A stretch of 64,000 nucleotides of DNA from Massilia sp. 9096 (GTDB taxonomy: Bacteria; Pseudomonadota; Gammaproteobacteria; Burkholderiales; Burkholderiaceae_D). The stretch covers positions 3,224,001-3,288,000 of the forward strand of contig NZ_JQNN01000001.1 in the NCBI RefSeq assembly GCF_000745265.1, read 5' to 3'. The notes below the pieces were generated by a model, which worked only from the letters and a program-made list of their open reading frames with translations, was not told where the DNA came from and did no database searches. The position numbers and the translations under genes are program-made. Every line of letters starts with the position of its first letter. The first letter of the stretch is position 1. Below, one piece after another: positions 3,943 through 17,542 of this stretch.

Positions 3943-3944
3943 TT

Positions 3945-4217
3945 TTAGTCCCGGGCAGTTACGGCATCAACATGCCAAAAGTTCTGAATCTCGTAATCGC
4001 TGTTCAGCTGAATTACGTCGTATGAGCCCGGAATACGCACCTTATATCCGCATTCAAATTTGACATATTCGACGTAGTCGGTAAGGAAAATTTTCCACAA
4101 CCGGTTCAGGAACCTCTTGTTTTTTAGGTATCCCCAGTGCTTAAGGAAGCGTTTATGTAAGGCAGTCAGTGTTTCTTCTGCGCGGCATTCGAAAAATGCT
4201 TTTTTGCTAGGTGTCAT
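3945..4217 (-). CDS. Hypothetical protein, 90 aa
   Basis: The family is not recognised. ATG 4217 is chosen over ATG 4229 because GGGGAACGAG sits directly in front of it. The protein is basic and aromatic-rich (KRFLKHWGYLKNKRFLNRLW), with no signal peptide or clear membrane segment. It stops just before the start of the HTH gene at 3942, so the two form an operon reading leftwards from a promoter region that contains the palindrome at 4232-4260. Confidence 0.6.
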   Translation of the reverse strand: MTPSKKAFFECRAEETLTALHKRFLKHWGYLKNKRFLNRLWKIFLTDYVEYVKFECGYKVRIPGSYDVIQLNSDYEIQNFWHVDAVTARD

Positions 4218-4231
4218 CTCGTTCCCCATGG

Positions 4232-4260
4232 AGTGATGTGATTGGATTTGTCACATCACT
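4232..4260. promoter_or_regulatory. Palindromic operator upstream of the minus-strand HTH operon
   Basis: AGTGATGTGA at 4232-4241 and TCACATCACT at 4251-4260 are a perfect 10-bp inverted repeat with a 9-bp spacer. It lies 15-43 bp upstream of ATG 4217, where an autoregulatory operator would sit. The GTGATT/TCAC elements recall the palindromes at 2944-3010, so one regulator may bind all three. Confidence 0.6.
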
Positions 4261-4636
4261 GTGTATGCACCTCCGTTTATACAAAGCTCTCCAAATTGCG
4301 CCGTCGTTACAAATTGTTACAACTTCGCTTTTTTTCGACTGTTTAGCTAGGAATTCACTGGAAAAAACCGTCCCTCATTGAAATATCTTCTATGGCATAT
4401 AACTATTCGATAGCCTTTATCTATGCCAGTAAACGAGTCCCAAGCTGTGGTTTCTGCGGGCGCAAGCGAGGCGGCTCCAGCTAGCTTCCCTCCTTTTCTA
4501 GCCCACGCCGCACCTAACTAATTAATCAAAGGGGGAACAAAATGTGGACATATGAATTTGGTAGCTAGACCTCTGCGCCCTCGGGCATATAAATCTGGTA
4601 GCTAGACTGTGTCACCTTTATCTGGGCATATAAATT
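4261..4636. other. AT-rich non-coding region, possible replication origin
   Basis: No gene was found. The stretch is AT-rich, carries two of the three iteron-like repeats of 4549-4646, and has a weaker related string near 4396-4415 (CATATAACTATTCGATAGC). It lies between two HTH genes. Repeats next to an AT-rich stretch and a replication-type HTH protein resemble an iteron origin, but no DnaA box was identified with confidence. Confidence 0.4.
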
Positions 4637-4646
4637 ATGTTAGCTG
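4549..4646 (+). repeat. Three iteron-like direct repeats
   Basis: The units are CATATGAATTTGGTAGCTAG (4549 on), CATATAAATCTGGTAGCTAG (4586 on) and a degenerate CATATAAATTATGTTAGCTG (4627 on). The spacing is 37 and 41 bp, nearly 3.5 and 4 helical turns. The first two units agree at about 20 of 22 positions. Confidence 0.75.
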
Positions 4647-4780
4647 TATTTCGCGCAGTTCTCTCTGGCACCGGCCGACCGTATGCCCTTTCGTGGTACA
4701 CAAGAATCAATCTGCCATATCAGCCAAAAACTCACGATGAGCTAGTCATTCAATTGATTGTCGACCGCCTTATTCGGTAA
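4637..4780 (+). CDS. Small ORF, 47 aa, followed by a terminator
   Basis: ATG 4637 to TAA 4778-4780 encodes 47 residues beginning MLAVFRAVLSGTGRPYALSW and ending VDRLIR. The family is not recognised. It overlaps the third iteron-like repeat, and no convincing ribosome binding site precedes it. The only support is the intact frame and the strong intrinsic terminator 6 bp after the stop, which shows that something is transcribed here on the plus strand. It could equally be a non-coding RNA. Confidence 0.35.
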   Translation: MLAVFRAVLSGTGRPYALSWYTRINLPYQPKTHDELVIQLIVDRLIR

Positions 4781-4785
4781 AGCAC

Positions 4786-4808
4786 AAGGGCCCTTATGGG
4801 CCCTTTTT
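4786..4808 (+). terminator. Rho-independent terminator
   Basis: AAGGGCCC, a TTAT loop, GGGCCC and then TTTTT form a strong GC stem with a U-tract on the plus strand. It ends a transcript coming from the repeat region to its left. Confidence 0.8.
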
Positions 4809-4844
4809 CGTTGTCTTAGCCGGCTCACTTGGCCAACCTGATTT

Positions 4845-5456
4845 TTAGCTTCGCAGCGCTTGCCTGAAGAATTTAATCGGGCCTATACTTCCGATTAGTT
4901 CCAAGTCTCCGACTGCCTTTTTTACTCGCTTGGCTTTTTTTACTAGCTCAGGATGAGTATTCCTAACTACAAGTACCGCCTTGTACTCTCCGGTCTCTGC
5001 GTCTGTAACAAAGCCGTCCGCGCCGGCAAAACCCGCTTTATCCAGCATTCCTATTTCGATGGCCTTCCTTATGCCTGCCATTCCCATTACTGTCTTACCC
5101 GCGTGATGCTGCGCTATTAGGTAATCTACTGCCGTTCTTTGTCTTGCCGAATCCAGCTGTGATAGGTCATATCCGTGCCGGAATAGCTCATGCGTTAGTC
5201 CTTCGTTTGCCCTTGCTGCACCGGTTTTTGTGAGGATGTAGACGCTCATGCGTAGTGAGCTGTCACGGCGCTTCACCTCTCCCCGTTCTACTAGCCGTTT
5301 TAGTACTCGGTCCGCGCTCACTCGAGCGCTGTGTGGATTTCCACCTCCCCACACCCAAGTCGCCACTTGCGTCGCGCTGAGCCATCCTACCAGGCCGATG
5401 GCCTGCAGTACGTGTCTCTCGTTGTCGATTGCTTTTAGTTGGTTTGCTGTTTCCAT
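4845..5456 (-). CDS. Winged-helix protein, replication-relaxation/Mob-accessory-like
   Basis: The product has 203 residues. ATG 5456 (METANQLKAID) is chosen because GAGGGGG lies just upstream; the longer frame from 5516 has no such site. Residues 10-90 form a winged HTH (IGLVGWLSATQVATWVW ... ADRVLKRLVERGEVKRR ... VYILTKTGAARANEG). This arrangement is seen in plasmid replication-relaxation or mobilisation accessory proteins. The C-terminal part is Lys/Val-rich and unassigned. No relaxase is next to it, so a transfer role is unproven. Confidence 0.6.
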   Translation of the reverse strand: METANQLKAIDNERHVLQAIGLVGWLSATQVATWVWGGGNPHSARVSADRVLKRLVERGEVKRRDSSLRMSVYILTKTGAARANEGLTHELFRHGYDLSQLDSARQRTAVDYLIAQHHAGKTVMGMAGIRKAIEIGMLDKAGFAGADGFVTDAETGEYKAVLVVRNTHPELVKKAKRVKKAVGDLELIGSIGPIKFFRQALRS

Positions 5457-5516
5457 CGTTGTACCCCCTCTATCTATTGGTACAGCGTATAGGTACAACG
5501 ACGAAAATCCGCTCAC

Positions 5517-5923
5517 TTGTCATTCCGGGTCGCGCTCTTGCGTGGCTGGACGCCCCGCCCGCACTCGTCGCTGTCGCTCCGTCCCTGTATACGGGGCACC
5601 CGCCCGAGCCACCGACTTCGTCGGCGGTTCGGCCGGGGGGCCCCACGCCTCCAGGCCGCCGACTATGTCGCCGTCCCCGGAGCCATGGGGCCCCCCGCCC
5701 TCCGGCCGTGCCCGGCTGCGCCCCATCCCAGCCACTTCGGCCCCTTGGGGGGCCTCGGTGCAGGGACGGCCCCCGCCAATCCTCTCGCTAGGGCTCGAGG
5801 ACGTTTTCGCTGGACGCTCAACGCCCCCTTCGGGGTTGCGGCACTCGCCTCCGCTCGTGTCAGCTACCGCACAAGGGTATAGTTGGCACTCAACGCTACC
5901 GCTAACACCGCTAGGAGACCATC
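5517..5923. other. GC-rich hairpin-rich region without a credible gene
   Basis: This stretch of about 360 bp is far richer in G and C than the rest of the island. It contains GGGGGGCCCC at 5635-5644 and GGGGCCCCCC at 5687-5696 (perfect 10-bp arms, 42-nt loop), plus further GGCCCC/GGGGCC strings near 5735-5755. Frames open here on both strands have proline/arginine-rich translations typical of GC-rich noise. Such a block could be a transfer origin, a single-strand origin or a structured RNA. The last bases carry the ribosome binding site of the gene at 5924. Confidence 0.45.
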
Positions 5924-6115
5924 ATGGATTTTGACATTCTGCGTAGAGCTACGCGTCCACTTACTCTTGCGCAGATTGAAGCTGTCGTGCGTGAGCGCAC
6001 TGCGGGTTCGCGGGGTGAGTGCCTCACTCTCGAAGACGCCGGTCTCGCAGATGAAGTACGGCGGTTTTTAGATACGAAGCTCCCGCCTGGTGACTATACG
6101 GAGGAGGTCAACTAA
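5924..6115 (+). CDS. Hypothetical protein, 63 aa
   Basis: ATG 5924 follows a good ribosome binding site (TAGGAG). The sequence MDFDILRRATRPLTLAQIEA then GECLTLEDAGLADEVRRFLD looks like a small acidic helical protein. The family is not recognised. It is followed after 18 bp by the membrane protein gene at 6134, and both precede the terminator at 6509, so the two form a short operon. Confidence 0.6.
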   Translation: MDFDILRRATRPLTLAQIEAVVRERTAGSRGECLTLEDAGLADEVRRFLDTKLPPGDYTEEVN

Positions 6116-6133
6116 CTCTTGAGGTTACTGTGC

Positions 6134-6487
6134 ATGCGCGCACTCGCAATGACGGTTTTTCGTATTTTAGTAATTTTCTTTCTAATAGGGCTTTTAACGA
6201 GGGCGCCTTGGCCTTTCGTCAGGGAAAACCGCTTGTTATTCCTCTCAATTTTGCTCTTTATAGCGGCTCCTATCGCGGCGGTTACGAAAGTGCTGCTAGC
6301 GAAGCGCCGCTCGAAAAAGAATTTTTTCCGTACTGAACAAAATTCCTTCGACGTCGCTATACATTATGTAGGTGCTTCTGATATCGACGTGAGAAGTGTG
6401 GTCCTACATACTCCCGAACCAGTCGAGCCCGGAAGCTACTACATGCTCTTGTCAATCTGCTTAGTCCCTACTGAAGGCCATAATTAA
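6134..6487 (+). CDS. Small inner-membrane protein, 117 aa
   Basis: There are two hydrophobic segments, FRILVIFFLIGLLTRA (about 8-25) and LLFLSILLFIAAPIAAVTKV (about 36-58). A basic stretch (AKRRSKKNFFR) and a soluble C-terminal part of about 45 residues follow. The family is not recognised. Starts at TTG 6119 or ATG 6149 are also possible. The gene ends 22 bp before a strong terminator. Confidence 0.55.
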   Translation: MRALAMTVFRILVIFFLIGLLTRAPWPFVRENRLLFLSILLFIAAPIAAVTKVLLAKRRSKKNFFRTEQNSFDVAIHYVGASDIDVRSVVLHTPEPVEPGSYYMLLSICLVPTEGHN

Positions 6488-6508
6488 AACAGCTTTATTC
6501 GCATTTTT

Positions 6509-6535
6509 CGCGGGCCAATTTGGCCCGCTTTTTTT
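6509..6535 (+). terminator. Rho-independent terminator
   Basis: GCGGGCCAA pairs with TTGGCCCGC, followed by a run of seven T on the plus strand. It closes the 5924-6487 transcript. On the minus strand it lies just after the stop of the 6535-6939 gene but has no T-tract there. Confidence 0.85.
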
Positions 6536-6939
6536 CAGTCGTTGAAGCTGCTTCCGTATGGATTTCCGTGGATGTCGATTGTGTCCGTCATCATAGGCAA
6601 GCCGTTAGTGTTGAATGCTGGGCCGTGCCCAGGCTCATCGCCACTCGACATGTCAGCTGCGTCGTCGATTACCGTCACGACTGCTTGGGATGTTTCTATC
6701 CACTCTGCCGCGTCGTCGTCATTGACATACATGCCCGACCCTTGCGGTCGAGATAGCACCCAAGCCAAGTACGCATGCGCTATCAGTACTGGTGCGTTGT
6801 ACACGATGAGGTGGTCGAGAAATCGTAGGAGGTGCGGGTGCTCAGCCCAGGCGTAAACGTCAACGGCAACTGTCACAACAAGTGACAGCGATGCCAGCCC
6901 CGCAAACGCCTCTCTGAACCCGAGATAAGGTGCAGGCAT
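6535..6939 (-). CDS. Putative membrane protein, 134 aa
   Basis: It begins MPAPYLGFREAFAG, with two hydrophobic segments (about 10-28 and 43-63). An acidic soluble tail follows (NDDDAAEWIETSQAVVTVIDD), ending in GNPYGSSFND. The family is not recognised and the ribosome binding site is weak. It is kept as a gene because the frame is long for this AT-richer stretch, the composition is protein-like, and it stops right at the terminator shared with the opposite transcript. Confidence 0.5.
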   Translation of the reverse strand: MPAPYLGFREAFAGLASLSLVVTVAVDVYAWAEHPHLLRFLDHLIVYNAPVLIAHAYLAWVLSRPQGSGMYVNDDDAAEWIETSQAVVTVIDDAADMSSGDEPGHGPAFNTNGLPMMTDTIDIHGNPYGSSFND

Positions 6940-7064
6940 GGTCGCATTTATTGTTATTATTCGATAGGTAATACTACACCGGATTGAGATATTTGTCCGA
7001 GCAGGAGCAATTCCGAAGTTAATGCAAGATGAGCCATGCTAGCATGTAGGCCAAGACCGATTTA

Positions 7065-7165
7065 GAGCATCTAATAAAAACCTTATGGCTGCGTTGCATT
7101 CGTCTCGCCGTACTAGCGTACTGTCTTCGACGATGCGTCTTGCCGGGGCGGCTCGTTAGACGCTC
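7065..7165. repeat. attC-like imperfect palindrome 1
   Basis: The outer arms are GAGCATCTAAT (7065-7075) and GTTAGACGCTC (7155-7165). Inside, GGCTGCGTTGCAT and GATGCGTCTTGCC form a second imperfect stem with a central GTACTAGCGTAC. Read on the minus strand it starts with GTCTAAC, which fits the attC R'' consensus RYYYAAC, and the stop codon of the adjacent minus-strand ORF lies inside that motif, as in integron cassettes. It matches the site at 8341-8433 almost end to end, in inverted orientation. Confidence 0.7.
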
Positions 7166-7386
7166 TTAGGCAGTAGATAGGCCTTGCCTGTTGTGGCATT
7201 CACGAAAACTTGGGGCTCGTTAGGCTGCCGCACGGGAAACTCCCCCGTCGACCCAAGCCGGTAGATGAAGATGGGCGCTGGCTCGCAGGATAGCGGTCGG
7301 AAGCCGTTATTTACCATTAGGCTAACCGGAAAACGCTGCTCGTTCTCTTCGTACATGTACATCGTGCCAATGTGCATTTCGCTCAT
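7156..7386 (-). CDS. Small hypothetical protein, possible partner of the HEPN-like gene
   Basis: The product has 76 residues starting MSEMHIGTMYMYEENEQRFP. ATG 7386 overlaps the stop of the upstream gene as ATGA, indicating translational coupling. The family is not recognised. It ends PKSV with the TAA inside the GTCTAAC of the attC-like site. The tight coupling to a HEPN-like gene suggests a two-gene module, possibly toxin-antitoxin. That function is inferred only. Confidence 0.6.
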   Translation of the reverse strand: MSEMHIGTMYMYEENEQRFPVSLMVNNGFRPLSCEPAPIFIYRLGSTGEFPVRQPNEPQVFVNATTGKAYLLPKSV

Positions 7387-7829
7387 GACTGCCACCTCTG
7401 CTCGTTTTTGAATCGACGCATTAGCTCCGTCTCCTCAAGGGGGAGACGGCTCATTATGCCGAAATAATTGGTCAGTGCGCGGCCGAGCATATCCTCTGCC
7501 TCGCGCTTGGGGTCGAACAAAATCTCGTCGTCCCCCTCTTCGTCCAGGTGCTTCGTGCGATTCCGTGCGTAGTTCATCACGTGAGTAATGCCCTTTTCGG
7601 TGGCGGGAGGGCCACCGATGTAGGCTGAGATTCGTAGCGCGCCGGCCCTCATGCCTTCAAAAGCGGAGTCGGTACCGCCTCTCGTCACGTAACCGCCTAG
7701 AATCTCATCGGCGCCGCCGGCCAAGTGCAGCGCTGCAAAGTAAGCACCGTCGAAATACATCTGCAGGCCGCACTCCAGCAACTCCTGGCCAACTTGCATC
7801 TTTGGGGTAACGCGTTCGAGCATCGACAC
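7383..7829 (-). CDS. HEPN-like helical protein, 148 aa
   Basis: The sequence LLECGLQMYFDGAYFAALHL then AGGADEILGGYV, followed by THVMNYARNRTKHLDEEGDD, resembles a widespread family of small all-helical proteins with a HEPN-type fold. RNRTKH (about residues 87-92) gives the R-x4-H pattern found in HEPN ribonucleases. Tail residues EAEDMLGRALTNYFGIM are typical of the same family. It is the middle gene of the unit bracketed by inverted attC-like sites and overlaps the next gene by 4 bp. Whether it is an active nuclease is unknown. Confidence 0.6.
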   Translation of the reverse strand: MSMLERVTPKMQVGQELLECGLQMYFDGAYFAALHLAGGADEILGGYVTRGGTDSAFEGMRAGALRISAYIGGPPATEKGITHVMNYARNRTKHLDEEGDDEILFDPKREAEDMLGRALTNYFGIMSRLPLEETELMRRFKNEQRWQS

Positions 7830-7832
7830 CGC

Positions 7833-8237
7833 TCAGCCTTTCTGCGGCACGTGCAGGCTTATCTTCTTCGTCGCAGCGGTGTACACCAGGAACTTCATGG
7901 GGCCGAACGGGTTCAGCATGTCTGCGTCGGAACCCGGAGAGCCGCGATGCGGTTTGAGCCAGGCGGACGCCGTTACGTCCTTGCTGCCGTCTAGCTTCGT
8001 TGCAACCGCCATGCAGTCGCGCAGTGCTGTCTCGACTTTTGCGTTTGAGGGCTTTTTGCCAGTGAACGTCACGAGAATGCTGTAGATGTTTCCTCCGCCA
8101 GAAGCCGCATCTAGGTACTGTCGCTCAGCCACGGCTCCGGTCGACATGGCGCACTTGAGTGGGATTTTGGGTGGCTTTGCATAGACGGAGCCAGATACAA
8201 CCGCAGCGAGCGCAGCAAAGGCGAATGCTTTTTTCAT
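7833..8237 (-). CDS. Secreted hypothetical protein, 134 aa
   Basis: ATG 8237 has a good ribosome binding site (GGGGAATCC). MKKAFAFAALAAVVSGSVYA is a signal peptide with an AxA-type cleavage site near residue 20, so the product should be periplasmic. Two cysteines (KCAMSTG and DCMAV) could form a disulfide. The family is not recognised. It is the first gene of the attC-bracketed unit and stops 4 bp before the HEPN-like gene start. Confidence 0.6.
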   Translation of the reverse strand: MKKAFAFAALAAVVSGSVYAKPPKIPLKCAMSTGAVAERQYLDAASGGGNIYSILVTFTGKKPSNAKVETALRDCMAVATKLDGSKDVTASAWLKPHRGSPGSDADMLNPFGPMKFLVYTAATKKISLHVPQKG

Positions 8238-8340
8238 GGATTCCCCAGGTAGTTGGCATATGCCTCGATGCATTCTAACCCGCTGGCTCTGCTTGTCAAA
8301 AAGAAAAGCCTTCGGCTAAAGGGCTGAACGTTGCTGCTCA

Positions 8341-8433
8341 GGCGTCTAACGAAACCCCACGGCAAGGCGCATCCGTCGAAGACAGTACGGCGAGAAGGAT
8401 GCAACGCAGCCATAGGGGGGTTTTAGAAGCTCT
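8341..8433. repeat. attC-like imperfect palindrome 2 (inverted copy of 7065-7165)
   Basis: It begins GGCGTCTAACGAAACCCC and ends GGGGGGTTTTAGAAGCTCT. The inner arms are GGCAAGGCGCATCC and GGATGCAACGCAGCC. Its reverse complement aligns with site 1 over nearly the whole length, sharing GGCTGCGTTGCAT, CTCGCCGTAC and TCGTTAGACGC. Together they bound a unit of about 1.37 kb (7064-8433). I see no convincing target duplication outside it. Confidence 0.7.
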
Positions 8434-8469
8434 TAGTCTGCAAGGCTCTGCTTAGCCATTTTAAACAGC

Positions 8470-9666
8470 TTATAGACCAAGAAAAGTATGGGCCTCGGCT
8501 TTTAAAGAAGGTATGTTGATATTCAAATCTTGTTGATAAATCTTTAATAGACACTTCCGCTCAATATCTTTTAGTTCATTATGGACGTGCTCTATATTTC
8601 TACACACATCATATGCTGCCAAGTATCCATTTTTCTTTGCACTTAGCTTACTGCCAAGTGTTGCAAGCGTAATTCCTCTGCTCAGCAATTCTTTTACAGA
8701 ACCGTAGTTAAGCATTTCCTCCCGTAGGCGCTGAATCTGCTTTTCAGAAAGACGTAGTTCATACGCTTTCTGCACGGGCGCCAACTCAAGTCCGAGGAAC
8801 TCGGCAGGTTGCAAAGGTTCGTAAATCACAGACTTAGTTTTTTCGTCATTTAAGGCCGGAATCGCCAAACCGATTTTCTCGAATTCGGCCTTACAAAAGT
8901 CGGCGACGCTTAAACAGTCAACTCTGGAATCACAAAAAAATATTAGGTCATCAGCGTATCGAACTGCCCTAAATCCCTTTTTCTCTACTGCCTTGTCAAA
9001 CGACTGTAAAAGCAGATTAGAAAAGAAAGGGGAAAGAGGCATGCCCTGCCGGACACCAATTCCTCTCCGTATCCCCAATTGCGCGATACGGCGCACGTTT
9101 GCCCTATTACTGCTTTCGACTTCACACTCCAGTGCGGACAGCAACAAGGGATGAAGACTACGCTCTTTGATACGTTTTTTTATCGCGGAACTAAGAATTT
9201 CTCGGTCTACTGAATCAAAAAACGAAGTAATGTCAGTTTTGAATACCCAAGCTTGCTTTCTTCTGTAGGCGCAAGCTAACTCGGCCGCTTGTTTGACAGA
9301 GCGCCCCTTTACAAAACCGAAGCTTATGGAGTTTGCTAACTGAAGATGATACTTATTAGCTAAAAAGCCAAGTAGCGTGCGCTGGACAAGACGGTCTATA
9401 ACCGTAGGCACACAGATAAGCCTATATTTGCCAGACGGCTTAAGGATAAGCACAGGCTTTAATTGACTAAAGCTGAATCGCTTTTCAGAAACTGCTCGGT
9501 GCAACTTGCCAATATTGTCTTTGTAATTAATGGCAAAGTCATTGATGCTGACACCATCAACCCCTATAGTGTTTCTCGATACGGGTTTGGTATTGTGGAA
9601 TAGGTCTTGCCAGGACTGGACGAACGACTTGTAGGTGAGGACTGCGGAATACGAATTACGACTCAT
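8470..9666 (-). CDS. Reverse transcriptase (stand-alone, defence-type candidate)
   Basis: The product has 398 residues and should copy RNA into DNA. RT motifs appear in order: GVDGVSINDF then LILKPSGKYRLICVPTVIDR (motifs 1-2), the catalytic FKTDITSFFDSVD (motif 3, about 142), GIGVRQGMPLSPFFSNLLL (motif 4, about 200) and RYADDLIFFC (motif 5, about 235). These are followed by AEFLGLEL and a C-terminal helical thumb. There is no maturase zinc or endonuclease domain. Retron hallmarks are missing: the NAxxH position reads QAAELA and the VTG position reads FLGLE. The DGR-type SQ motif is also absent. This fits a group-II-like, unknown-group or defence-associated RT. ATG 9666 overlaps the stop of the frame through the upstream repeats as ATGA. 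Confidence 0.88.
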   Translation of the reverse strand: MSRNSYSAVLTYKSFVQSWQDLFHNTKPVSRNTIGVDGVSINDFAINYKDNIGKLHRAVSEKRFSFSQLKPVLILKPSGKYRLICVPTVIDRLVQRTLLGFLANKYHLQLANSISFGFVKGRSVKQAAELACAYRRKQAWVFKTDITSFFDSVDREILSSAIKKRIKERSLHPLLLSALECEVESSNRANVRRIAQLGIRRGIGVRQGMPLSPFFSNLLLQSFDKAVEKKGFRAVRYADDLIFFCDSRVDCLSVADFCKAEFEKIGLAIPALNDEKTKSVIYEPLQPAEFLGLELAPVQKAYELRLSEKQIQRLREEMLNYGSVKELLSRGITLATLGSKLSAKKNGYLAAYDVCRNIEHVHNELKDIERKCLLKIYQQDLNINIPSLKAEAHTFLGL

Positions 9667-9897
9667 TTAGGAAACCCGCTGGCATTGATTCTCCCGGACC
9701 AGCGGTCTAAGGCCCCGTCGACGACACCGGCTTTGCAGAGCGCCTCTTGCGAGTCCACCCTGCCGCTGATACCGCCGCTGACGCTCACGCGATTGCTCGC
9801 CGTTGCGCCATCATGCCGCTTGGTCACGTGCAGCGCAACCTGCAGAGATGCCTGAGGGTGCACCGAACAAACTTCCGCGGAGGTCGAATCTCCACCA
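9667..9897 (-). ncRNA. Putative structured leader / non-coding RNA of the RT locus
   Basis: It is predicted to start about 7 nt after the -10 box at 9904-9909 and run to the RT start. It contains all of repeat copy A. On the minus strand, CACCCT near its 5' side can pair with AGGGTG about 100 nt later. Inside are TTGCGC/GCGCAA, GCGA-GCAA-TCGC (a GNRA tetraloop) and AGAG-GCG-CTCT. A last hairpin, CCGCTGG/CCAGCGG (9676-9705), sits just before the RT start. No ATG-initiated frame follows this predicted start. A coding alternative exists: an 85-residue frame from ATG 9920 to TGA 9663-9665 ending SGFPK. Confidence 0.55.
9710..9861 (-). repeat. 152-bp direct repeat, copy A (next to the RT)
   Basis: It is identical to copy B (10118-10269) except at 9814, where the plus strand has T and copy B has G at 10222 (A versus C on the transcribed strand). 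The repeat starts AGGCCCCGTCGACGACACC and ends CCTGAGGGTGC on the plus strand. It is GC-rich and highly structured, in contrast to the AT-rich RT gene. The 408-bp offset is a multiple of three. Confidence 0.95.
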
Positions 9898-9903
9898 ATT
9901 ATC

Positions 9904-9932
9904 ATATTATCACACTCCATGTTAAAGCGCAA
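9904..9932 (-). promoter_or_regulatory. Sigma70-type promoter for the RT leader
   Basis: On the minus strand TTGCGC (9932-9927), 17 bp, then TAATAT (9909-9904). The spacing is ideal. It lies between the two 152-bp repeats and reads through copy A into the RT. Confidence 0.6.
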
Positions 9933-10117
9933 GCAAAATGCTAACGCCAGGGCAATCGGAGCGGCAATAACGCGCCGCGCCGAAGGCATAACTGAATGCT
10001 TGGACGGCTTGCGGACATTCGACTTTTGCGACGCACCCGCGCCCCTGCTTTCAGCCCGCTCTGCACGTTTGTTACTCGCCTTCCCAATAACTCCGGGAGT
10101 AGAAGACGGTCGCCGCG

Positions 10118-10269
10118 AGGCCCCGTCGACGACACCGGCTTTGCAGAGCGCCTCTTGCGAGTCCACCCTGCCGCTGATACCGCCGCTGACGCTCACGCGA
10201 TTGCTCGCCGTTGCGCCATCAGGCCGCTTGGTCACGTGCAGCGCAACCTGCAGAGATGCCTGAGGGTGC
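10118..10269 (-). repeat. 152-bp direct repeat, copy B (distal)
   Basis: Second copy of the unit at 9710-9861, one mismatch in 152 bp, same orientation. A minus-strand frame is open from GTG 10235 through this copy, the 256-bp spacer and copy A to the RT start, but an in-frame TAG sits just upstream of the copy. The spacer translates to a hydrophobic run (VIAAPIALALAFCLRF) but shows no recognised domain. A TTGACT string just upstream of the copy could be a -35 element. Confidence 0.93.
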
Positions 10270-10351
10270 TACCACAAGTCAATTCTACCTCAGCTACGGG
10301 AGCTCTACCATTATTTCAGCGCGACGGGCTTTTTAGTTGGTCTGAAAGGTT

Positions 10352-11338
10352 TCAGGGCGCCGGGTTGTTCCAGCAACCTGGACTTGCGGAATCAAAGAAC
10401 ACTACTTCTGTGACGTCGATGTCATGAAGGGTTTGTTCGGCGTGGCGCATGTAAACTTCGTTATTGCCATAGACAGAAACCGCTACCTTTTTGCAAGACG
10501 ATTTCCTGAGTGAATTAACAATGTGCTGCTCCTGCTCAGCGATTCCCCATCCATAAATGACCAAGGAGCTTCCGATTTTAGGCAGCACTTCTCGGTTAAC
10601 ACGCTGTAGGTAAGATGAGCTCTTTATCGACTTGACCTTGTGGTCGGACGTCCCCTCGCAAACAAACAGGGGAACAGCCTGCCCTGACTCCCAGACTTCC
10701 AAGACACGAGTAAGTAGGTCCTGGCCGCGCGCCTTGAGCTTGCCCTCTTCGTCGTCCAAAGTACGTGCAAGTGCAAGATTGCCATGTGGATAGAAGAATA
10801 AGGTGGCACCCGCTGCTCCGTAAGCATCGGCCATGCGCTCCCAGTTGTCAGCGAAAGCCCCGCTGGCAAAACAGTCTTTGAACCAGTTGCCGAGTGCGTC
10901 CCGACTGTACATCGCAGCCCAATAGACGATGAGGTCGTAGTTTAGTGAAACCACCGTCTTGAAGCCTTGCATGAAGGTATAAATCGGCTTCAGGTGCACC
11001 ACCGCATCGTCGTGGCTAATGTGCACTTCCCGGACCGTTTCAATGAGCGCAGTTCGGACCTGCTCGTACGCCTCCTCAACCTGGCCCGCGGCAATCCCGA
11101 GAGTTTCATTTACCACCTTCGCTTGCCACAAACGCCGTAACACAAGCTCGAAGTCATTAACGCCAAACGCGTCGAAGACACCGGCAACCTCGGGAGTGAT
11201 GAAGTTGTGGTCTTGTGCTGCTTCAAACAGACCCGCGTATCCGAAACCCCGGTGAATCGCCATGCTGGCACCGTTGCCCAAGAGCAATCCCTCGCTGAAG
11301 TGCGCCTTGATTTCTTCCCACTGATGTATTTTTGTCAT
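10352..11338 (-). CDS. DUF4917 / SIR2-like protein, candidate effector
   Basis: The product has 328 residues. The motifs LLLGNGASMAIH (about 18-29), GVNDFELVLRRLW, VVSLNYDLIVYW (about 131) and FFYPHGNLAL (about 185) follow the order seen in DUF4917 proteins. They resemble the NAD-binding GxxGN / N-Y-D / H-G pattern of SIR2-like folds, which in several defence systems deplete NAD. The C-terminal part (SSLVIYGWGIAEQEQHIVNSL) is the second half of that fold. It lies upstream of, and in the same orientation as, the 152-bp repeats and the RT, 82 bp before copy B. NADase activity is inferred from fold resemblance only. Confidence 0.65.
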   Translation of the reverse strand: MTKIHQWEEIKAHFSEGLLLGNGASMAIHRGFGYAGLFEAAQDHNFITPEVAGVFDAFGVNDFELVLRRLWQAKVVNETLGIAAGQVEEAYEQVRTALIETVREVHISHDDAVVHLKPIYTFMQGFKTVVSLNYDLIVYWAAMYSRDALGNWFKDCFASGAFADNWERMADAYGAAGATLFFYPHGNLALARTLDDEEGKLKARGQDLLTRVLEVWESGQAVPLFVCEGTSDHKVKSIKSSSYLQRVNREVLPKIGSSLVIYGWGIAEQEQHIVNSLRKSSCKKVAVSVYGNNEVYMRHAEQTLHDIDVTEVVFFDSASPGCWNNPAP

Positions 11339-11788
11339 GTTATGGTGTCTTATTTTTACACAGCCGGTGAGCCGGTTACGACGTCGTCATCCCTTGACGT
11401 CCAGCAGCTTAGCTCGTTACCCATCATATCTGAACGCTAGGTAGGATGAAGCAATAGCTATTTCGAAGTTGTTGTGCTCTGACCCAAGGTAGTGCCCTGC
11501 AGTTCTTTTAACGATTAACTCTGCTGTCAGTCTTCAATTTTCGAGACGAATGCGCTAGTTCGGGTGGCGGTTTCGCTCTCGAACTTCCCTAACAGCCGGC
11601 TCGGTTAATGCTCAGCTGATTCTTCAATGCCCCTCGAGTTCAAGAATATTGCCGCTGCCACAGGATTACACAAGGGTAAAACCATGATAAAATTACAATT
11701 TCTTAGAGCGAACTGCTTTAAGGCTTGGCGTTATATTTTAATAAATAAAAATAAGATTCTTTAAATTATTTAATGATTGGGAGAAGAG
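11339..11788. other. Divergent intergenic region, about 450 bp
   Basis: The gap lies between the minus-strand DUF4917 gene and the plus-strand ATPase. It must hold both promoters. The part before 11789 is very AT-rich (TTATATTTTAATAAATAAAA near 11730). It also contains the att-like string at 11461-11485. No credible gene was seen. Confidence 0.5.
11461..11485 (+). repeat. Internal copy of the island right end (att-like site)
   Basis: TTTCGAAGTTGTTG followed by TGCTCTGACCCA matches the right-end sequence at 15178-15203 (TTTCGAAGTTGTTG, CACTCTAACCCA). The first 14 bases are identical, with three mismatches in the next 12. It has the length and position relative to CCA expected of one arm of a serine-recombinase attachment site. 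Confidence 0.6.
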
Positions 11789-12856
11789 ATGACATTACCA
11801 GGCGCACATCCATTTACATACATTATTGGGAACAACGGCTCAGGCAAAAGCCGCGCACTCGAAAGTGATGCGCAGTTAAAGTCGAAGAGTTCCCCAGTAG
11901 TAGTGATTTCATCCTCAGTTAGCGATAAGTTCACCTATGGTGGGACTGTAAAAACTCGCGCTAACGGCAGTTACACGTACGCAGGGAATAGAACGGTTGG
12001 CAACGGCCTGCACACCAATACGCTCGCCGCTAACGTTGTCCTCAATTATGCACGTTTGATAAATCAGAGAGGCGAGGCGGAATTTTTAAAATTTTTGCCC
12101 AAGATGGGCCTTGAGCCATCTGTTGGCATTGAATACGTGAAAAAGAAGCGAAGCAAAGGCAGCGTGCCGTTCCTAAAATCGGAGCTCACCTCTTCTTTTA
12201 TTCAAGAGTTTCAATCTGTTTTTAGCGACAAGACTAAGCCATTTGTGCCAATTTTCAAAAAGGGAGACAAAGAATATGATTTTCCTTCTCTGAGTTCTGG
12301 GGAGCAGTCTATGCTTGCCACTGCATTGCGGGTACTTACAAACCTGGCACCTAGAACTATTTTTTATATTGATGAACCCGAAATCAGCCTACATGTCGAA
12401 TGGCAAGTAAAATGGCCAGGGATGATACAAGAGCTCGTAAGTAAGACCCAGGATGTTCAGGTATATGTGGCGACTCACTCGCCGGTGATTATCTCTAGCG
12501 CAATGAACTTAGGCATGCATTGCTACTCATTAAAAGATGACGTATATTCTGAAATTCTTGAACACGATTTGAATGTGGAGCGCCTTATTTTCAATGACTT
12601 TCATACGCTCACACCAGACAACAAGCACATATACAACGAATTCTCTCGAATAATCAGCACGATAATGGATGGCATCAATTCCGGTCGCGCCGGAGTAAAA
12701 TTGAATGCAAGGGCGGAAGTAAAAATCTTAAAGCAGAAAGTCGAAAAAGCGGCGGCAATTGCACCTGCGCGTGCTCAGCTTTCACAGACCATGAGTGACT
12801 TCGAGCGCGCAGTTACGGAAATACTCAGCAGTGTTAGAGGTGGAACAAATGCGTAA
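11789..12856 (+). CDS. AAA/ABC-type ATPase, Septu PtuA-like
   Basis: The product has 355 residues. ATG 11789 follows GGGAGAAGAG; a TTG four codons upstream is less likely. Walker A is GNNGSGKS (about 14-21), the ABC signature LSSGEQSML (about 168), Walker B FYIDEPEISLH (about 193) and the H-loop ATHSPVIISS (about 228). This is the layout of OLD/PtuA-type ATPases, where ATP state controls a partner nuclease. The last 100 residues are helical and charged. It overlaps the HNH gene by 8 bp, the usual PtuA-PtuB arrangement. It is shorter than classical PtuA. Confidence 0.8.
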   Translation: MTLPGAHPFTYIIGNNGSGKSRALESDAQLKSKSSPVVVISSSVSDKFTYGGTVKTRANGSYTYAGNRTVGNGLHTNTLAANVVLNYARLINQRGEAEFLKFLPKMGLEPSVGIEYVKKKRSKGSVPFLKSELTSSFIQEFQSVFSDKTKPFVPIFKKGDKEYDFPSLSSGEQSMLATALRVLTNLAPRTIFYIDEPEISLHVEWQVKWPGMIQELVSKTQDVQVYVATHSPVIISSAMNLGMHCYSLKDDVYSEILEHDLNVERLIFNDFHTLTPDNKHIYNEFSRIISTIMDGINSGRAGVKLNARAEVKILKQKVEKAAAIAPARAQLSQTMSDFERAVTEILSSVRGGTNA

Positions 12857-13556
12857 AAAACGAACATTAGCTGATGAGTTTTGGAAGCGCATCTATCCTA
12901 CGAAAAAGAATTCTCGAAAAATTGCAGAAGAATTAAGGAGACGTTTTCACTGGCGGACGCAGCACTTCCCAGTTCCCACAACCCTCTGGACGGAATTTTT
13001 CGCGGAGACAGCCGGTAGTTATATACACCGCAGTTTATCCTCGTATCTTTTGGAAAAACAGTCAAACTACTGCTGTTATTGTCAGGAGAGAATCTATACA
13101 AAAGTGAACGCCGCTATCGACCATGTTTTACCTCGTTCGTTTTATCCCCAATTTACTTTTACGTTTCACAATTTAGCGTTAGCGTGCGTCACGTGTAATG
13201 GACTTAAAAGTGACGAAAATTGGTATCAACTGCCATTTGCCGAGCTTAAATATTCGAAGCATCGGAAGTCACTGCAAGTCTTCCATCCCAAATTTCATGA
13301 ATTCAACGAGCATATCGACATGTTTTGCATGCAAACAAATTACATATATGTAAGAACATACTTTGGAAGAACTAACCAAGGCAAGAAGCTATGTTTACAA
13401 CATCTTAACAAAATTGCCGTCTATACGGCAAAAAGTAAGGCTAATACACAAGCCGTTAAAGCTATTGAAGACCTCAGAAAATTTATCGCAACCGCCGATA
13501 CTTCAACTAATGCGTCTGAAAGAATATTTAAGTTGCTCGTCAATCGTCTCGCATAA
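12849..13556 (+). CDS. HNH endonuclease, Septu PtuB-like
   Basis: The product has 235 residues. ATG 12849 overlaps the end of the ATPase gene (stop 12854-12856), so the two are translationally coupled. The nuclease core is YCCYCQERI (about 74), AIDHVLPRS (about 91) and LACVTCNGLK (about 112). It combines the zinc-binding cysteine pairs with the catalytic DH of the HNH fold seen in PtuB. In Septu the pair acts as an anti-phage nuclease. The C-terminal half is basic and unassigned. Confidence 0.82.
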   Translation: MRKKRTLADEFWKRIYPTKKNSRKIAEELRRRFHWRTQHFPVPTTLWTEFFAETAGSYIHRSLSSYLLEKQSNYCCYCQERIYTKVNAAIDHVLPRSFYPQFTFTFHNLALACVTCNGLKSDENWYQLPFAELKYSKHRKSLQVFHPKFHEFNEHIDMFCMQTNYIYVRTYFGRTNQGKKLCLQHLNKIAVYTAKSKANTQAVKAIEDLRKFIATADTSTNASERIFKLLVNRLA

Positions 13557-13607
13557 TACCTTAAGGCTGACGGTGTTTTTGCTGCGGCCTTTTTTACATT
13601 TAAGGTA
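13557..13607 (+). terminator. Probable terminator after the ATPase-HNH operon
   Basis: TACCTTAA at 13557-13564 and TTAAGGTA at 13600-13607 are perfect inverted arms. Nested inside is AAGGC ... GCCTT followed by a T-tract. It begins directly after the HNH stop codon. Confidence 0.55.
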
Positions 13608-13827
13608 GAAGTAAGAGGAAAGAAATCGAGAAAAAGAAGGTGGGTCAGGCCAATGGCTCGTCACCGGGAAGCTTTACCGTTGGAAATCTGAATTTCGACG
13701 ATTCCTCTTTAAAGTTACGCTACACTAACCCACTTCGAAGCAAATCGAAATGACGTAAATAGCCAAATTAACAAAGAGCATCGACCTCATCCGCGTTTTT
13801 GCAATTTGATTTTTCAATTAATGCCAC

Positions 13828-14847
13828 TCATCCATTAATTTCAGGAGACGTTATATCTTGAATAATCGCGTCCGAAATTTTTTCAGATATCTCTTCGTTA
13901 TACTTCGCGCTCCACCCCCATTTTCTTGTTGCGATATTTAGTCCATCAAAACACTCCATCATAAACGCAATAGCTTTTTTAGGGTCCGCTTTTACAAAGA
14001 ATCTGTCACCTTTTTTCTTTAAAGGTTTTGAATTAGGTGCACAGGTGCAAGTAGTCATCCACATCAGCGTTGACCAGCGTTCTTCGCCAGCACAGAGATA
14101 CCATTCTCTTATCTCTTTTCGTGCTGCCGTGGCCCAACGCCTAATCGCTGGGATTTGGTACACTTCCCTATGGTCGTACTCATACCCGTAAGTCGCAATG
14201 TAAAGCTTTCCTTGAACGGCCAGTGCGAGTTTTTCGTTTCGCGTAATCCTTGCGATAAAATTTTTCAGATTTGATACATTTAAAGACTCAATATCTTTTC
14301 GAGGAATACTGTATTGAATCAATGAATCCTCCCCGATTTTGCTAAGCATCTCTTGGTCCCGCTCAAACTCCGATAAGTGATTCTCAGCATTTCCAAAAAG
14401 ATTTTTTATTTCATCTATACTGCTTTTACATAGTTTTTTATCTTTCGGAATCGGATATCTCCAACCGGCGCCACCAAAGTCAACATTCTCTTTTTTTAAA
14501 ACCTCCCAATAGCAGTCTTTTCCTTCCGGGTCACAAATTATTAATAAGAGTGGAGTGGGAAGATTTAAAAAGTAATTTAGATGTTCTTTACTATCTTTAT
14601 ACCAATGCATTTGGCCGCCAGGCGTTAGGTAGCTTTTCCCCGTCTTAACCTGAACAGCTATGAATTGCCCTGTCACACTTCCGTCTGGCGAAACGTAGTC
14701 TACGTACCCATCCACTCCAAAATCATGTTCTTGATGAGTTCTTCTAAAAACCCACCCGAAATCATCATTAAAAATTGTCGAAACAACATTAATTCCAATC
14801 TCTGCAGTTTTACCCGTATTTTGTCGTTTCGGAAAATTTCCAGTCAT
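13828..14847 (-). CDS. DUF4365 nuclease-like protein
   Basis: The product has 339 residues, starting at ATG 14847 (MTGNFPKRQNTGKTAEIGIN). An upstream ATG at 14907 would add a non-conserved stretch. The N-terminal 150 residues match DUF4365: EHDFGVDGYVDYV (about 37) followed by GQFIAVQVKTGKSYL (about 64). The D ... QxK spacing is that of a PD-(D/E)xK-like restriction fold. The domain is common in defence islands, alone or beside RM-type genes. Residues 170-339 are unassigned. It faces the Septu-like operon and is the last gene before attR. Confidence 0.7.
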   Translation of the reverse strand: MTGNFPKRQNTGKTAEIGINVVSTIFNDDFGWVFRRTHQEHDFGVDGYVDYVSPDGSVTGQFIAVQVKTGKSYLTPGGQMHWYKDSKEHLNYFLNLPTPLLLIICDPEGKDCYWEVLKKENVDFGGAGWRYPIPKDKKLCKSSIDEIKNLFGNAENHLSEFERDQEMLSKIGEDSLIQYSIPRKDIESLNVSNLKNFIARITRNEKLALAVQGKLYIATYGYEYDHREVYQIPAIRRWATAARKEIREWYLCAGEERWSTLMWMTTCTCAPNSKPLKKKGDRFFVKADPKKAIAFMMECFDGLNIATRKWGWSAKYNEEISEKISDAIIQDITSPEING

Positions 14848-15177
14848 TTTTATCTTCAAAACCAAATATTCGGCTATCTCGACATGGTATAACGAAAAAG
14901 TAACCATTGACTATTAGTACTTTTTAAACACCAGAATTCTTGTTATAAATAAAAGCTAACAGTCAGAGCATACAAAGTAACACTAGAATAATGCGATTCG
15001 TAGAAAATTATGTTCGGGCCGTATACCGACGTCAAGCGGTAAATCATTTACTTCTGACGATTCAAGAGAGGGTGTTAGATACACCTTGAGGTGACACTAT
15101 GCCAATAGACATGCATCGCGTTCTAAATATCGAGCGAGGTTGCTGCCGAAAGGACATCAGATAGACGGTAAGAGTTG
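14848..15177. other. AT-rich right end of the island
   Basis: About 330 bp between the DUF4365 start and the right attachment arm, with no credible gene. It must contain the promoter of the DUF4365 gene near its left side. No repeat other than the right-end arm was noticed. Confidence 0.45.
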
Positions 15178-15204
15178 TTTCGAAGTTGTTGCACTCTAAC
15201 CCAG
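15178..15204. other. attR arm and core of the island
   Basis: TTTCGAAGTTGTTGCACTCT leads into AACCCAG. The last four bases CCAG equal those at 1049-1052, and radC resumes with the next base. This is the right junction. Confidence 0.75.
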
Positions 15205-15432
15205 ACCACAGTGTACCCACGCGAAGTCGTACGCGAAGCGATCGCCTGCAACGCCGCCAGCGTCCTGCTCGCCCACAATCACCCGTCCGGCATGGCGCAG
15301 CCGAGCGACGCCGACCTGAACATCACGCAGCGGCTGCGCGAGGCGCTGGCCCTGGTCGACATCCGCGTGCTCGATCATTTCGTGGTGGCCGGGCCGCTGG
15401 TGTATTCGTTTGCGGAGCACGGGCAGCTGTAG
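15205..15432 (+). pseudogene. radC: radC, 3' part
   Basis: It continues RadC in frame with the 606-1052 part: [20 protein letters not shown], then [17 protein letters not shown], the JAMM zinc motif H-x-H-x10-D, and ends FAEHGQL. It has no start codon of its own at the junction. Frames open upstream of it in island DNA are not conserved. The product of this fragment alone would lack the N-terminal half of the fold. Confidence 0.92.
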
Positions 15433-15462
15433 CGCCGCGTCGGTCGCGCTGCGCGGCGCTGC

Positions 15463-17106
15463 TCACGACGGCCCGGGCGCCTGCGCCAAGGCCGGCTGCG
15501 CCCGCACCGGCGCCGGTCCCGGCGCGGGCAGCATCATGCGCTCGACCGTGAAGCCGAGCATCCCCCTGCCCCCGAACCGCAGCGGCAGCTCGATACGCGC
15601 ACGCGACAGCGGCCGCGCTGCCGGGTAGGCGGCGCGGAAGTCGGCGCCGAGGCCTTGCGGGTAGCCGTCCTGGGTCACCAGCAGCACCTCGCCGCGCAGC
15701 GGGCGGCGCTCGCGCAGCAGGTCGTCCAGCAGGACAGTTTGCGCGACGGTCTGCAAGGACGGCGCCTCGGCCCGGGCGAACAGCAGGTTGCCGGCCAACA
15801 TGACGTCATTGGCGACCACGGCCTGCGCGCCCGGATACCGCTGCGCCAGCGCCTGCGCCAGCGGCGCGTACGGATAATGCGCCGCCACCGTCTTGCCGAT
15901 GGCCGGGCCGAGCCAGATGCGCGCCGGCAGCAAGGCAAGGGTCGCGACCCCAGCCACGGCGCCGATGCGCAACAGCCGGCCTCCGGGCGCCTGCCGGCGC
16001 AGCGCGGGCAGCCAGACCAGCAGCGCCAGCGGCAGCGAAAACAGCACCGGCATCAGCCAGCGCTCCTTGATCGTCCCGACCACCCCGAGCAGCACCAGCA
16101 ACCCCAGCTGCGCCAGGCAGAGCACATACAGCCAGAGAAAAAAGCGGCCGGCGGCGCCATCTCGCGCCCGCGCCATGCGCGCATCGCGCGCTCGCGTACG
16201 CACGCGGGAGGCCAGATCGGCGCGCACGGACCAGGCGGCGAACGCGAACGCGGCGGCGGGTACGGCGACGAAGGCCGCCAGCGCCGACAACAGGCCGAGC
16301 GCGCCGTGCAGCACGCGGCGCAGGTAAGGCGCGTGCTCGCCGCCGTCCTGCATCTTGTGCAGCGTGCCGCCGAAGGCCGCGTCGAGGTGCTGCGCCATCC
16401 AGGCGGCATGCGGCAGGAAAACCACCATGGCCACCAGCGCCGCGATCCAGGCGCGCCGGTGCCACAGCACCACGCGGTGCTCGTGCACCAGCAGACTGGC
16501 GCCGACCATGCCGCCCAGCAGGATGGCGAAGTTGTACTTGGCCAGCAGCCCGAGGCCCGCCACCAGGCCGAAGGCCGCGTAGCGCGCGGCGACCGGCCTG
16601 GCCAGCAGCGCGCCGTATGCCCACAGCAGGCCGCAGGCGAGCGCCATCATCAGCACGGAGTGGGTCTGGATGCGCAGCGCTTCCCAGCCGATCTGCGGCA
16701 ACAGCAGCAGCGACGCGGCCGCCGCCAGCGCCCCGGCCCGGCCGACCCACGGCAGCGCGGCGCGATACATCGCCATGTAGATCGCACCCAGCGACAGGCC
16801 CTTGACGAGCGCCAGCGCGAAACGATCCGGTCCGAAGGCCTGGAAGGCCAGCCACTGCAGCCAGGTGTAGAGCGGCGGCTGGGCGCCGTAGCCGGGCCGC
16901 AGGTCGCGCGCCAGGTAGACCATCTCGGCTTCGTCGCGTTCGAGCCCGCCGTGCTCGCCCAGACGCAGCACGAGGTAAGCCACGACATAGGCGAGCACGG
17001 CCAGCAGCGGGCCCGGGACCTCGCTGCGCCGGCGCAGGACGGGCGCGCCATGGGCATCGAAGGCGTCGACCGGGCCCGGTGATGCGGCCAAATGCTCGTC
17101 GGACAT
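15463..17106 (-). CDS. GT39-type membrane glycosyltransferase (ArnT/PMT-like)
   Basis: The product has 547 residues. ATG 17106 (MSDEHLAASPGPVD) is preceded by GGAGAG. The longer frame to 17454 lacks family resemblance upstream. The first loop after TM1 carries RDEAEMVYLARDL and then QPPLYTWLQWLAFQAFGPDR, the acidic and PPLY signature of GT39/ArnT-like enzymes that use polyprenyl-phosphate sugars. About a dozen hydrophobic segments fill residues 35-450, followed by a periplasmic domain (VAAHYPYAPLAQALAQRYPG). The acceptor could be lipid A or a protein and cannot be told from the sequence. Confidence 0.8.
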   Translation of the reverse strand: MSDEHLAASPGPVDAFDAHGAPVLRRRSEVPGPLLAVLAYVVAYLVLRLGEHGGLERDEAEMVYLARDLRPGYGAQPPLYTWLQWLAFQAFGPDRFALALVKGLSLGAIYMAMYRAALPWVGRAGALAAAASLLLLPQIGWEALRIQTHSVLMMALACGLLWAYGALLARPVAARYAAFGLVAGLGLLAKYNFAILLGGMVGASLLVHEHRVVLWHRRAWIAALVAMVVFLPHAAWMAQHLDAAFGGTLHKMQDGGEHAPYLRRVLHGALGLLSALAAFVAVPAAAFAFAAWSVRADLASRVRTRARDARMARARDGAAGRFFLWLYVLCLAQLGLLVLLGVVGTIKERWLMPVLFSLPLALLVWLPALRRQAPGGRLLRIGAVAGVATLALLPARIWLGPAIGKTVAAHYPYAPLAQALAQRYPGAQAVVANDVMLAGNLLFARAEAPSLQTVAQTVLLDDLLRERRPLRGEVLLVTQDGYPQGLGADFRAAYPAARPLSRARIELPLRFGGRGMLGFTVERMMLPAPGPAPVRAQPALAQAPGPS

Positions 17107-17542
17107 GTCTCTCCTCGTCAAAGCAAACCGGTGGCGTGCGATCGCGCGCCTGCCTCTACTGAAACGCGAGCAGGCTTGCGTGGTCTTGAAGTCCGACAAA
17201 CGCACGGTAATGCGGTTCGCATACGCGCGCCGGCGTGGTGTGCTTCCTACACTGCGATCGACAGGCGCAGCCCATGGCGACAACGATGACCTTGCGGGAG
17301 AAGGCAGATGTATCTCGACCGCCACGCTTGAATGTCCCCGAGCGTTCCGTGAGCGCCGTTTCAGGCACCGATAAGACTGTGTAAACAGAGGCTTAGCACA
17401 CGAATATTGCGAAATTCGATAATTGTTAAATCTTTGCGATTTATGGAGAAACAATTTTTTTCCGCAAGTTGTTGATTACGCGACGGTTTTCAAGCTATAC
17501 TCTCGTTTTTCCAAATCTGGAAGTTTATTCAAGGAGTGCGCT
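17107..17542. other. Intergenic region upstream of rpmB
   Basis: About 435 bp between the divergent glycosyltransferase and rpmB. The right end holds the rpmB promoter. The rest shows no gene; frames running through it are GC-rich overlaps without homology. Confidence 0.5.
17472..17501 (+). promoter_or_regulatory. rpmB-rpmG promoter
   Basis: TTGATT (17472-17477), 18 bp, then TATACT (17496-17501), about 40 bp ahead of the rpmB start. Confidence 0.6.

Follow-up and report, generated by a model that had tools for sequence, protein, structure and literature searches.

In a 64,000-nucleotide (nt) stretch of DNA from Massilia sp. 9096 (assembly GCF_000745265.1, contig NZ_JQNN01000001.1, positions 3,224,001 to 3,288,000 of the forward strand; hereafter the window), comparative sequence analysis points to a two-part system made up of a group II intron-like reverse transcriptase (RT) and an RNA of the order R1-U-R2-H3, in which a unique segment (U) separates two near-identical terminal repeats (R1 and R2) and a hairpin (H3) follows the second repeat. 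We regard it as moderately probable that the RT builds on this RNA a concatemeric complementary DNA (cDNA) encoding a repetitive protein. The order from 5' to 3' on the minus strand is the DUF4917 gene (positions 11338 to 10352), R1, U, R2, H3, and the RT gene, in agreement with an earlier note on this DNA, which had described the DUF4917 gene, the repeats, and the RT as co-directional; coordinates given for these elements and for the signals within them are window positions on the minus strand.

The mechanism that we propose would proceed as follows: (i) transcription would begin at a promoter, P1, at the start of R1; (ii) a segment just past R1 would pair with the loop of H3, by which the 3' ends of R1 and R2 would be brought together; (iii) the RT would initiate in or beyond R2 and copy U and R1 to the 5' end of the RNA; (iv) the nascent cDNA, complementary to R1, would reanneal to R2 and be extended again, in a strand jump resembling retroviral strand transfer or telomerase realignment; and (v) the product would be a concatemer of the 408-bp unit. 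In such a concatemer, a second promoter, P2, of one unit would read into the start codon of the next, and the resulting protein, long and repetitive and with a hydrophobic segment in every 136 amino acids, would probably be membrane active and probably toxic, as in abortive infection. The identity of R1 and R2 could be maintained if the cDNA recombined with the chromosome. We infer the primer and the trigger, as well as the strand jump, transcription of the concatemer, and its toxicity.

The R1-U-R2 block and its distribution

R1 (10118 to 10269) and R2 (9710 to 9861), each of 152 nt, flank U (9862 to 10117), are identical at 151 of 152 positions, and lie 408 nt apart from start to start. The duplicated 152-nt unit described in the earlier note is real as a pair of repeats; the conserved unit proved to be the larger R1-U-R2 block, with a 408-nt period, of which the repeats are the termini. 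Of 25 records that combine an intact RT frame with sufficient upstream DNA, 23 show the same R-U-R arrangement immediately before the RT, at RT identities as low as 28%, and so do 25 of 28 records with upstream DNA and any RT of the clade. Among these 28, the arrangement is missing from L004, L114, and L113, the last of which has a partial RT; the 25 intact records exclude L101, L112, and L113, whose RT frames are not intact. Records L020 and L071, with upstream DNA too short, and the near-copies H2 and H25 were left out before counting, and several records share a contig (L019 with L006, L025 with L008, L093 with L072, and L094 with L071). Across loci, R measures 103 to 152 nt, the two copies are 96.6 to 100% identical where equal in length, and the period ranges from 342 to 453 nt; in L022 and L023 the copies match in exact blocks of 47 and 94 nt, split by an indel at the variable site described below. 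No comparable near-identical pair at such spacing was found at 39 other RT loci taken as a control.

Single-sequence scans of genome and viral contigs returned no relative, and an alignment-based scan succeeded: it gave 52 loci from genome contigs, the top 17 of which (28 to 58% by alignment) are clear relatives from Beta-, Gamma-, and Alphaproteobacteria and one archaeal metagenome-assembled genome, which may include a contaminant, and viral contigs yielded further relatives. A plasmid search added relatives in Acinetobacter (45%) and Acetobacter (35%), and 15 stretches were returned when viral contigs were scanned for the repeat motif. The RT family is rare: in phylum and class samples, the genome of origin was the only one with a member (1 of 398 at an E value of 1e-70 and 1 of 369 at 1e-50). 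Strong R-U matches among 294 genomes of the taxonomic family fell in exactly the four genomes with the RT, the genome of origin included, and repeats without the RT amounted to two weak matches of 35 to 43 nt in two further genomes; the tie that had been drawn earlier between a stand-alone RT and a structured, duplicated region is borne out by these distributions. The RNA region had no match in E. coli genomes, and the RT-repeat region is single copy in its own genome.

Several further observations were made during these scans. Two distant phage records matched at 27 to 29%. Beside other RTs we saw DGR-like (diversity-generating retroelement-like) pairs of 92 to 99 nt, 80 to 89% identical, in L038 and the viral contigs L097 to L099, a 58-nt pair at 88% in L057, and tandem arrays in L047, L059, and L075. 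The RT of L101 has stops in all frames, and the repeats of this locus measure 142 nt at 99% identity. An invertase-like gene lies approximately 450 nt upstream of the Acetobacter RT (L004 and L114).

An endless open frame and its putative expression signals

When the R1 plus U unit is placed in tandem, its period is divisible by three and exactly one sense frame is free of stops in 22 of 23 loci (19 of 20 in a first set, together with L092, L111, and L112; L003, a near-copy of L002, and L101 stand outside the test). L111 and L112, found after the rule had been stated, carry 0/9/10 and 0/12/24 stops per sense frame, respectively. The open frame lies on the RNA sense strand in 19 of 20 loci, and the antisense strand is likewise open in 5 of 20, each with a G+C content of at least 64%. 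Dinucleotide shuffles in 16 lineages gave summed log10 p values of -26.7 for the unit, -17.9 for U minus its last 60 nt, and -7.6 for divisibility, all of which are overstated, since the lineages, taken as independent, are related. Coding differences between the copies comprise a stop found only in R2 of L029 and an indel in R2 of L022 and L023; the R1-derived unit is therefore the readable one. The hydrophobic stretch encoded by the frame (VIAAPIALALAFCLRFN, 9921 to 9971) lies in U, and across loci it is located in U or at its end.

Promoter-like and ribosome-binding-like signals recur around this frame. In the window, P1 is represented by a -10-like hexamer, TAGAAT (10282 to 10287), 12 nt before R1, which predicts an RNA start near the beginning of R1; P2 has a -10-like hexamer, GATAAT (9898 to 9903), within TATGATAAT and 36 nt before R2, and a -35-like TTAACA (9920 to 9925); and a Shine-Dalgarno-like GGAG precedes an in-frame ATG of the endless frame (9903 to 9918), the ATG standing at -44 from R2. 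In 13 of 16 lineages (null mean, 4.1), the final 110 nt of U contain an in-frame start with a Shine-Dalgarno-like match of at least 4 nt. With position limits chosen after inspection of the promoter-scan results, the unit's best promoter-like site ends 24 to 55 nt before R2 in 11 of 16 lineages (P2; null mean, 1.2), and the best upstream site ends 8 to 20 nt before R1 in 9 of 16 (P1; null mean, 2.2). None of 150 shuffles matched any of the three counts, and both L111 and L112, the later loci, fit P2. If transcription from P2 is assumed to start 7 nt past the -10 hexamer, the start codon lies upstream of that point in 7 of 8 lineages having both signals; the gene would therefore be permuted in the chromosome, and the P2 transcript should not carry this start codon. 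P2 may simply be the promoter of the RT.

These data also bear on the simplest rival, that R1-U-R2 is an ordinary membrane-protein gene whose product contains two near-identical domains and whose translation is coupled to that of the RT, no concatemer being formed. In its favor, the chromosomal frame of the window stays open from the beginning of R1 almost up to the RT, including a 190-amino-acid open reading frame (ORF) from a GTG (9663 to 10235), and its stop overlaps the RT ATG; 8 of the 15 loci in which the frame is open throughout have the stop no more than 8 nt from the RT start as listed; and close pairs of loci show weak purifying selection in the true frame. Several features weaken this rival, which we consider unlikely: (i) the start codon at R1 is not conserved, reading CTG, ATG, or TTG at the same place; (ii) the recurring Shine-Dalgarno/start pair sits in U, near R2; (iii) in L028 to L030, the GGTTGC motif of R falls in a different reading frame, so that the motif is kept as nucleic acid; (iv) R2 carries the stop of L029 and the indel of L022 and L023; and (v) the covarying RNA elements, described next, come after the repeats.

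Conserved RNA structure

H3, a hairpin with a covarying stem, lies between R2 and the RT start (9676 to 9705). In the nine lineages, of 15, that MAFFT placed in one register, all eight stem pairs have changed on both sides and 94.4% of cells are paired; 0 of 500 shuffles scored as high on four of five measures, and slid versions of the stem scored far lower. Among the remaining six lineages, some hairpin folds at the place of H3 in five, and the sixth, L111, lay outside the folding.

The loop of H3 matches a segment that starts 9 to 26 nt after R1. In the window, the loop arm UCCGGGAG (9691 to 9698) is complementary to CUCCCGGA (10092 to 10099), its predicted partner just past R1, and the two sides are exact complements that change together between loci, as in UCCCUAGA/UCUAGGGA of L022 and GCCCCUGA/UCAGGGGC of L030. 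Watson-Crick runs between the post-R1 segment and H3 gave a p value of 0.00006 over the 15 lineages (0.86 for a control segment), and an earlier, wider form of the test gave 0.00075.

Homogenization of the repeats

Repeats from different loci have diverged or cannot be aligned, and yet the two copies within each locus are near-identical. Differences in R between loci are mostly found in both copies (19 of 19 for L035 and L111, 21 of 25 for L028 and L029, 10 of 11 for L002 and L027, 9 of 10 for L027 and L031, and 9 of 12 for L026 and L027); pairs with few differences share 1 of 3 (L019 and L007), 0 of 2 (L026 and L031), and 0 of 1 (L034 and L035). On these alignments, the copies of R evolve in concert. 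Differences between R1 and R2 of one locus fall mainly at a single site of 2 to 4 nt, approximately 35 to 57 nt into R and after CGGC, which in the window reads C in R1 (10222) and A in R2 (9814). This site differs between the copies in 17 of 23 loci compared and is the same in L026, L033, L034, L035, L111, and L112; where it differs, R2 mostly has A or C. The variable site may mark the point of the jump.

A 103- to 152-nt repeat pair beside an RT, identical save mainly for one 2- to 4-nt site, could also be read as retrohoming of the DGR kind, in which cDNA of an R2 template overwrites R1 and changes are aimed at one site. We consider such retrohoming very improbable, given that the differences extend beyond adenines (TAC/ATG in Acinetobacter, CGA/GTC in L024, and C/G in L029 and L092), that the RT lacks the SQ motif, that the DGR-like pairs beside other RTs (L038 and L097 to L099) reach only 80 to 89% identity, and that the promoter, the start codon, and the divisibility by three would be left unexplained.

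The reverse transcriptase

The RT gene (8470 to 9666) encodes 398 amino acids with a match to Pfam RVT_1 (7e-28). Its active site reads YADD (YVDD in L033), and its motif 4 region reads RQGMPLSP, in which R206 to S212 are invariant across 18 RTs; the YADD and the absence of the DGR SQ motif are as the earlier note had stated, and the retron motifs NAxxH and VTG, as defined there, are likewise absent on reading of the sequence. Every NCBIfam match of the RT falls below its cutoff, far below in the case of the defense-associated RT (DRT) and retron families: Drt2 scored 51.9 bits (cutoff, 390), the best retron model 86 bits (cutoff, 235), and TIGR04416, for group II maturases, 179 bits (cutoff, 300). 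Pfam found no maturase domain in the RT, and Rfam gave no match, to an intron RNA or otherwise, at an E value of up to 1 in positions 1 to 18000 of the window. The predicted structure (mean predicted local distance difference test score, 88.8) has its best fold matches in the group II RT GsI-IIC (template modeling [TM] score, 0.72) and in G2L4 (TM score, 0.73), both normalized to the query, and the top match is 7k9y, a group II RT template-switching complex.

In PADLOC, the top match was a generic RT model without a stated cutoff (174.6 bits), followed by UG17 (141.9 bits), a model to which a true member scores 511 bits. The phylogenetic tree comprised 50 rows, after removal of L110, a broken Drt2 row, and of six outgroup rows that were long or odd; 20 rows are labeled R-U-R, of which L020 and L071 carry the label unverified. 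The RT clade, L004 included, has a support of 100/98, and the true UG17 member is placed outside it, the single UG17 row being the closest neighbor in this small tree (90/83, on a long branch). As far as it can be placed by profile scores and by a small tree in which UG17 has a single row, the RT stands outside the tested groups with a described noncoding RNA (ncRNA).

The proximity to UG17 bears on another explanation, namely that the active agent is the cDNA, in the manner of DRT9 or DRT10, as untranslated tandem DNA whose open frame is a by-product. UG17, the RT of DRT10, is nearest both in the tree and among the PADLOC DRT models, and R-U-R resembles, on a larger scale, the A-B-A' template outlined for DRT10 in PMC12632851. 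Against an active DNA stand the open frame and divisibility by three at 22 of 23 loci, as well as the Shine-Dalgarno/start pair and P2 within the unit, and we think it improbable.

Evidence against a concatemeric product

A number of observations weigh against the proposal that the RT assembles a repetitive gene. As to the repeats, the Acetobacter locus represented by two strains (L004 and L114) falls inside the RT clade, and no repeats were found when it was scanned; L112, on an Acinetobacter soli plasmid, has a perfect R-U-R and an open frame beside an RT frame broken near residue 75; L101, a decayed relative of L092, has a period of 452, which is not divisible by three; and L032 breaks the rule, with a period of 395 versus 396 in its close kin. 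As to the signals, whose limits were set post hoc, of 16 lineages, 5 lack P2 and 7 lack P1, neither L111 nor L112 fits P1, and L092 is the exception to the position of the start codon upstream of P2's expected start. As to the RNA, the further pair types of H3 are ordinary (115 of 500 shuffles), the long-range match of L033 comprises 4 nt only, and once G-U pairs are admitted, the true loci match over the long range no better than mismatched ones (p = 0.56). As to the protein, the frame runs on to the RT in the chromosome, and plain translation is therefore possible; the hydrophobic stretch exceeds shuffles (p < 0.05) in 8 of 19 loci only; and the ratio of nonsynonymous to synonymous differences (pN/pS) in the true frame is 0.38 to 0.71 in six close pairs, five of them from Acinetobacter, and 0.70 to 1.58 in six divergent pairs. 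Judged by these ratios, amino acid constraint on the endless frame is weak; for neo of DRT2, PMC12039810 ascribes amino acid conservation mostly to conservation at the nucleotide level. Finally, PADLOC defense families lie beside only 6 of 15 scanned loci.

Comparison with known systems

DRT2 is similar in that an RT lies beside an RNA, the tandem unit has a length that is a multiple of three and a single frame that stays free of stops through the junctions, promoter and gene are out of order until tandem copies form, and the product is hydrophobically biased, as set out in PMC12039810 and PMC11100668. As DRT2 is described there, the two systems differ in several respects: (i) the window RT is not of the Drt2 family; (ii) the DRT2 unit is 111 to 129 nt, versus 342 to 453 nt here; (iii) DRT2 uses ACA motifs, versus terminal repeats of 103 to 152 nt here; (iv) the DRT2 frame lies on the cDNA strand, the reverse complement of the ncRNA, whereas here it lies on the RNA sense strand; and (v) here the post-R1 segment matches the loop of a hairpin that follows R2. 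In DRT10, too, the template runs into a second copy of its beginning (A-B-A'), which suits realignment, and the UG17 RT of DRT10 is the nearest, weakly supported, neighbor in the small tree, whereas A is 4 nt in Eco3DRT10, according to PMC12632851, versus 103 to 152 nt here, and the RT is not UG17. In the same account DRT10 needs a SLATT protein, and here no partner gene is shared among the 22 compared loci, a comparison made without a SLATT-specific model.

The likeness to group II intron RTs and G2L4 lies in the RT fold; the RT differs from those of group II introns in its subthreshold score and the absence of a Pfam maturase domain and an Rfam match, and from G2L4 in having YADD in place of the YIDD given for G2L4 in PMC4244168. 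Retrons are unlike it in their motifs and in model score, and no inverted repeat of at least 20 nt, the minimum length scanned, was found at 8470 to 11338 as a candidate retron a1/a2 pair. DGRs are unlike it in that the differences between R1 and R2 are not adenine specific and motif 4 has QG, not SQ. LTR (long terminal repeat) retrotransposons and retroviruses carry direct repeats at both RNA ends, suited to strand transfer. The R-U-R RNA shares this design, whereas the repeats here do not enclose the RT, the region is single copy in the genome, and no integrase gene is shared among the 22 compared loci. No described system of this kind was found in the open-licence literature, including the portions available of PMC8934634 and PMC13213688, which does not prove its absence from print.

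A broader proposition, to which we give somewhat less than an even chance, is that the locus represents a second, independent invention of RT-assembled genes, in which an LTR-like RNA is concatemerized by a group II intron-like RT, promoter and start codon are permuted until tandem copies form, and the repeats are kept identical by feedback from the cDNA. If this is true, the building of hidden genes by repeated reverse transcription would have two or more origins that differ in RT and in RNA device (short ACA motifs for DRT2, long terminal repeats for the present locus), and bacteria would possess a retrovirus-like strand-transfer RNA. An RT next to homogenized direct repeats whose period is a multiple of three would then offer a genome rule for finding such systems, the locus would give a direct test of what holds the repeats identical, and repetitive DNA could also be made with a processive RT able to jump from one long repeat to another.

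Genomic island and neighboring genes

The DUF4917 ORF (10352 to 11338; PF16263, 2.9e-86; PADLOC PDC-S21, 3.4e-113) ends 82 nt from R1 in the same direction, an arrangement that would suit the three-part defense system of the earlier note, with DUF4917 as effector. DUF4917 lies beside the RT in this locus only, of 22 compared, and a promoter-like site separates it from R1, so that the claim is not supported and such an effector role appears remote in the extreme; no literature linking DUF4917 with a reverse transcriptase was found. An all-against-all BLASTP comparison of flanking ORFs found nothing but the RT and the R-U-R frame to be shared by more than 4 of the 22 loci, and an effector encoded within the repeat unit is likely.

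Neighbors were scanned with PADLOC for 30 of 62 listed flanking ORFs at 15 of 17 loci, the window's own island being counted apart. Matches at six loci comprised PDC-S06, TIR-NLR, bSEFIR, PDC-S53 with AbiEi, type IIG restriction, and one methyltransferase. Because such defense families adjoin RT loci, a defense function is likely, as deduced from the neighbors.

The island interrupts radC, the N part of which (261 to 1064) matches UPF0758_N and RadC positions 2 to 50, and the C part (15175 to 15432) RadC positions 44 to 120; a large serine recombinase ORF (1036 to 2802) lies at the island edge. Family matches confirm that the Septu-like pair PtuA (11777 to 12856) and PtuB (12795 to 13556) and the DUF4365 gene (13828 to 14907) are aboard, as had been noted. 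Two small ORFs (7383 to 8273) lie between inverted repeats at 7081 to 7163 and 8342 to 8417 (34 nt at 91% and 32 nt at 84%), and a group II intron RT above its family cutoff (L105) is encoded in the same genome approximately 3.3 kb before the start of the window.

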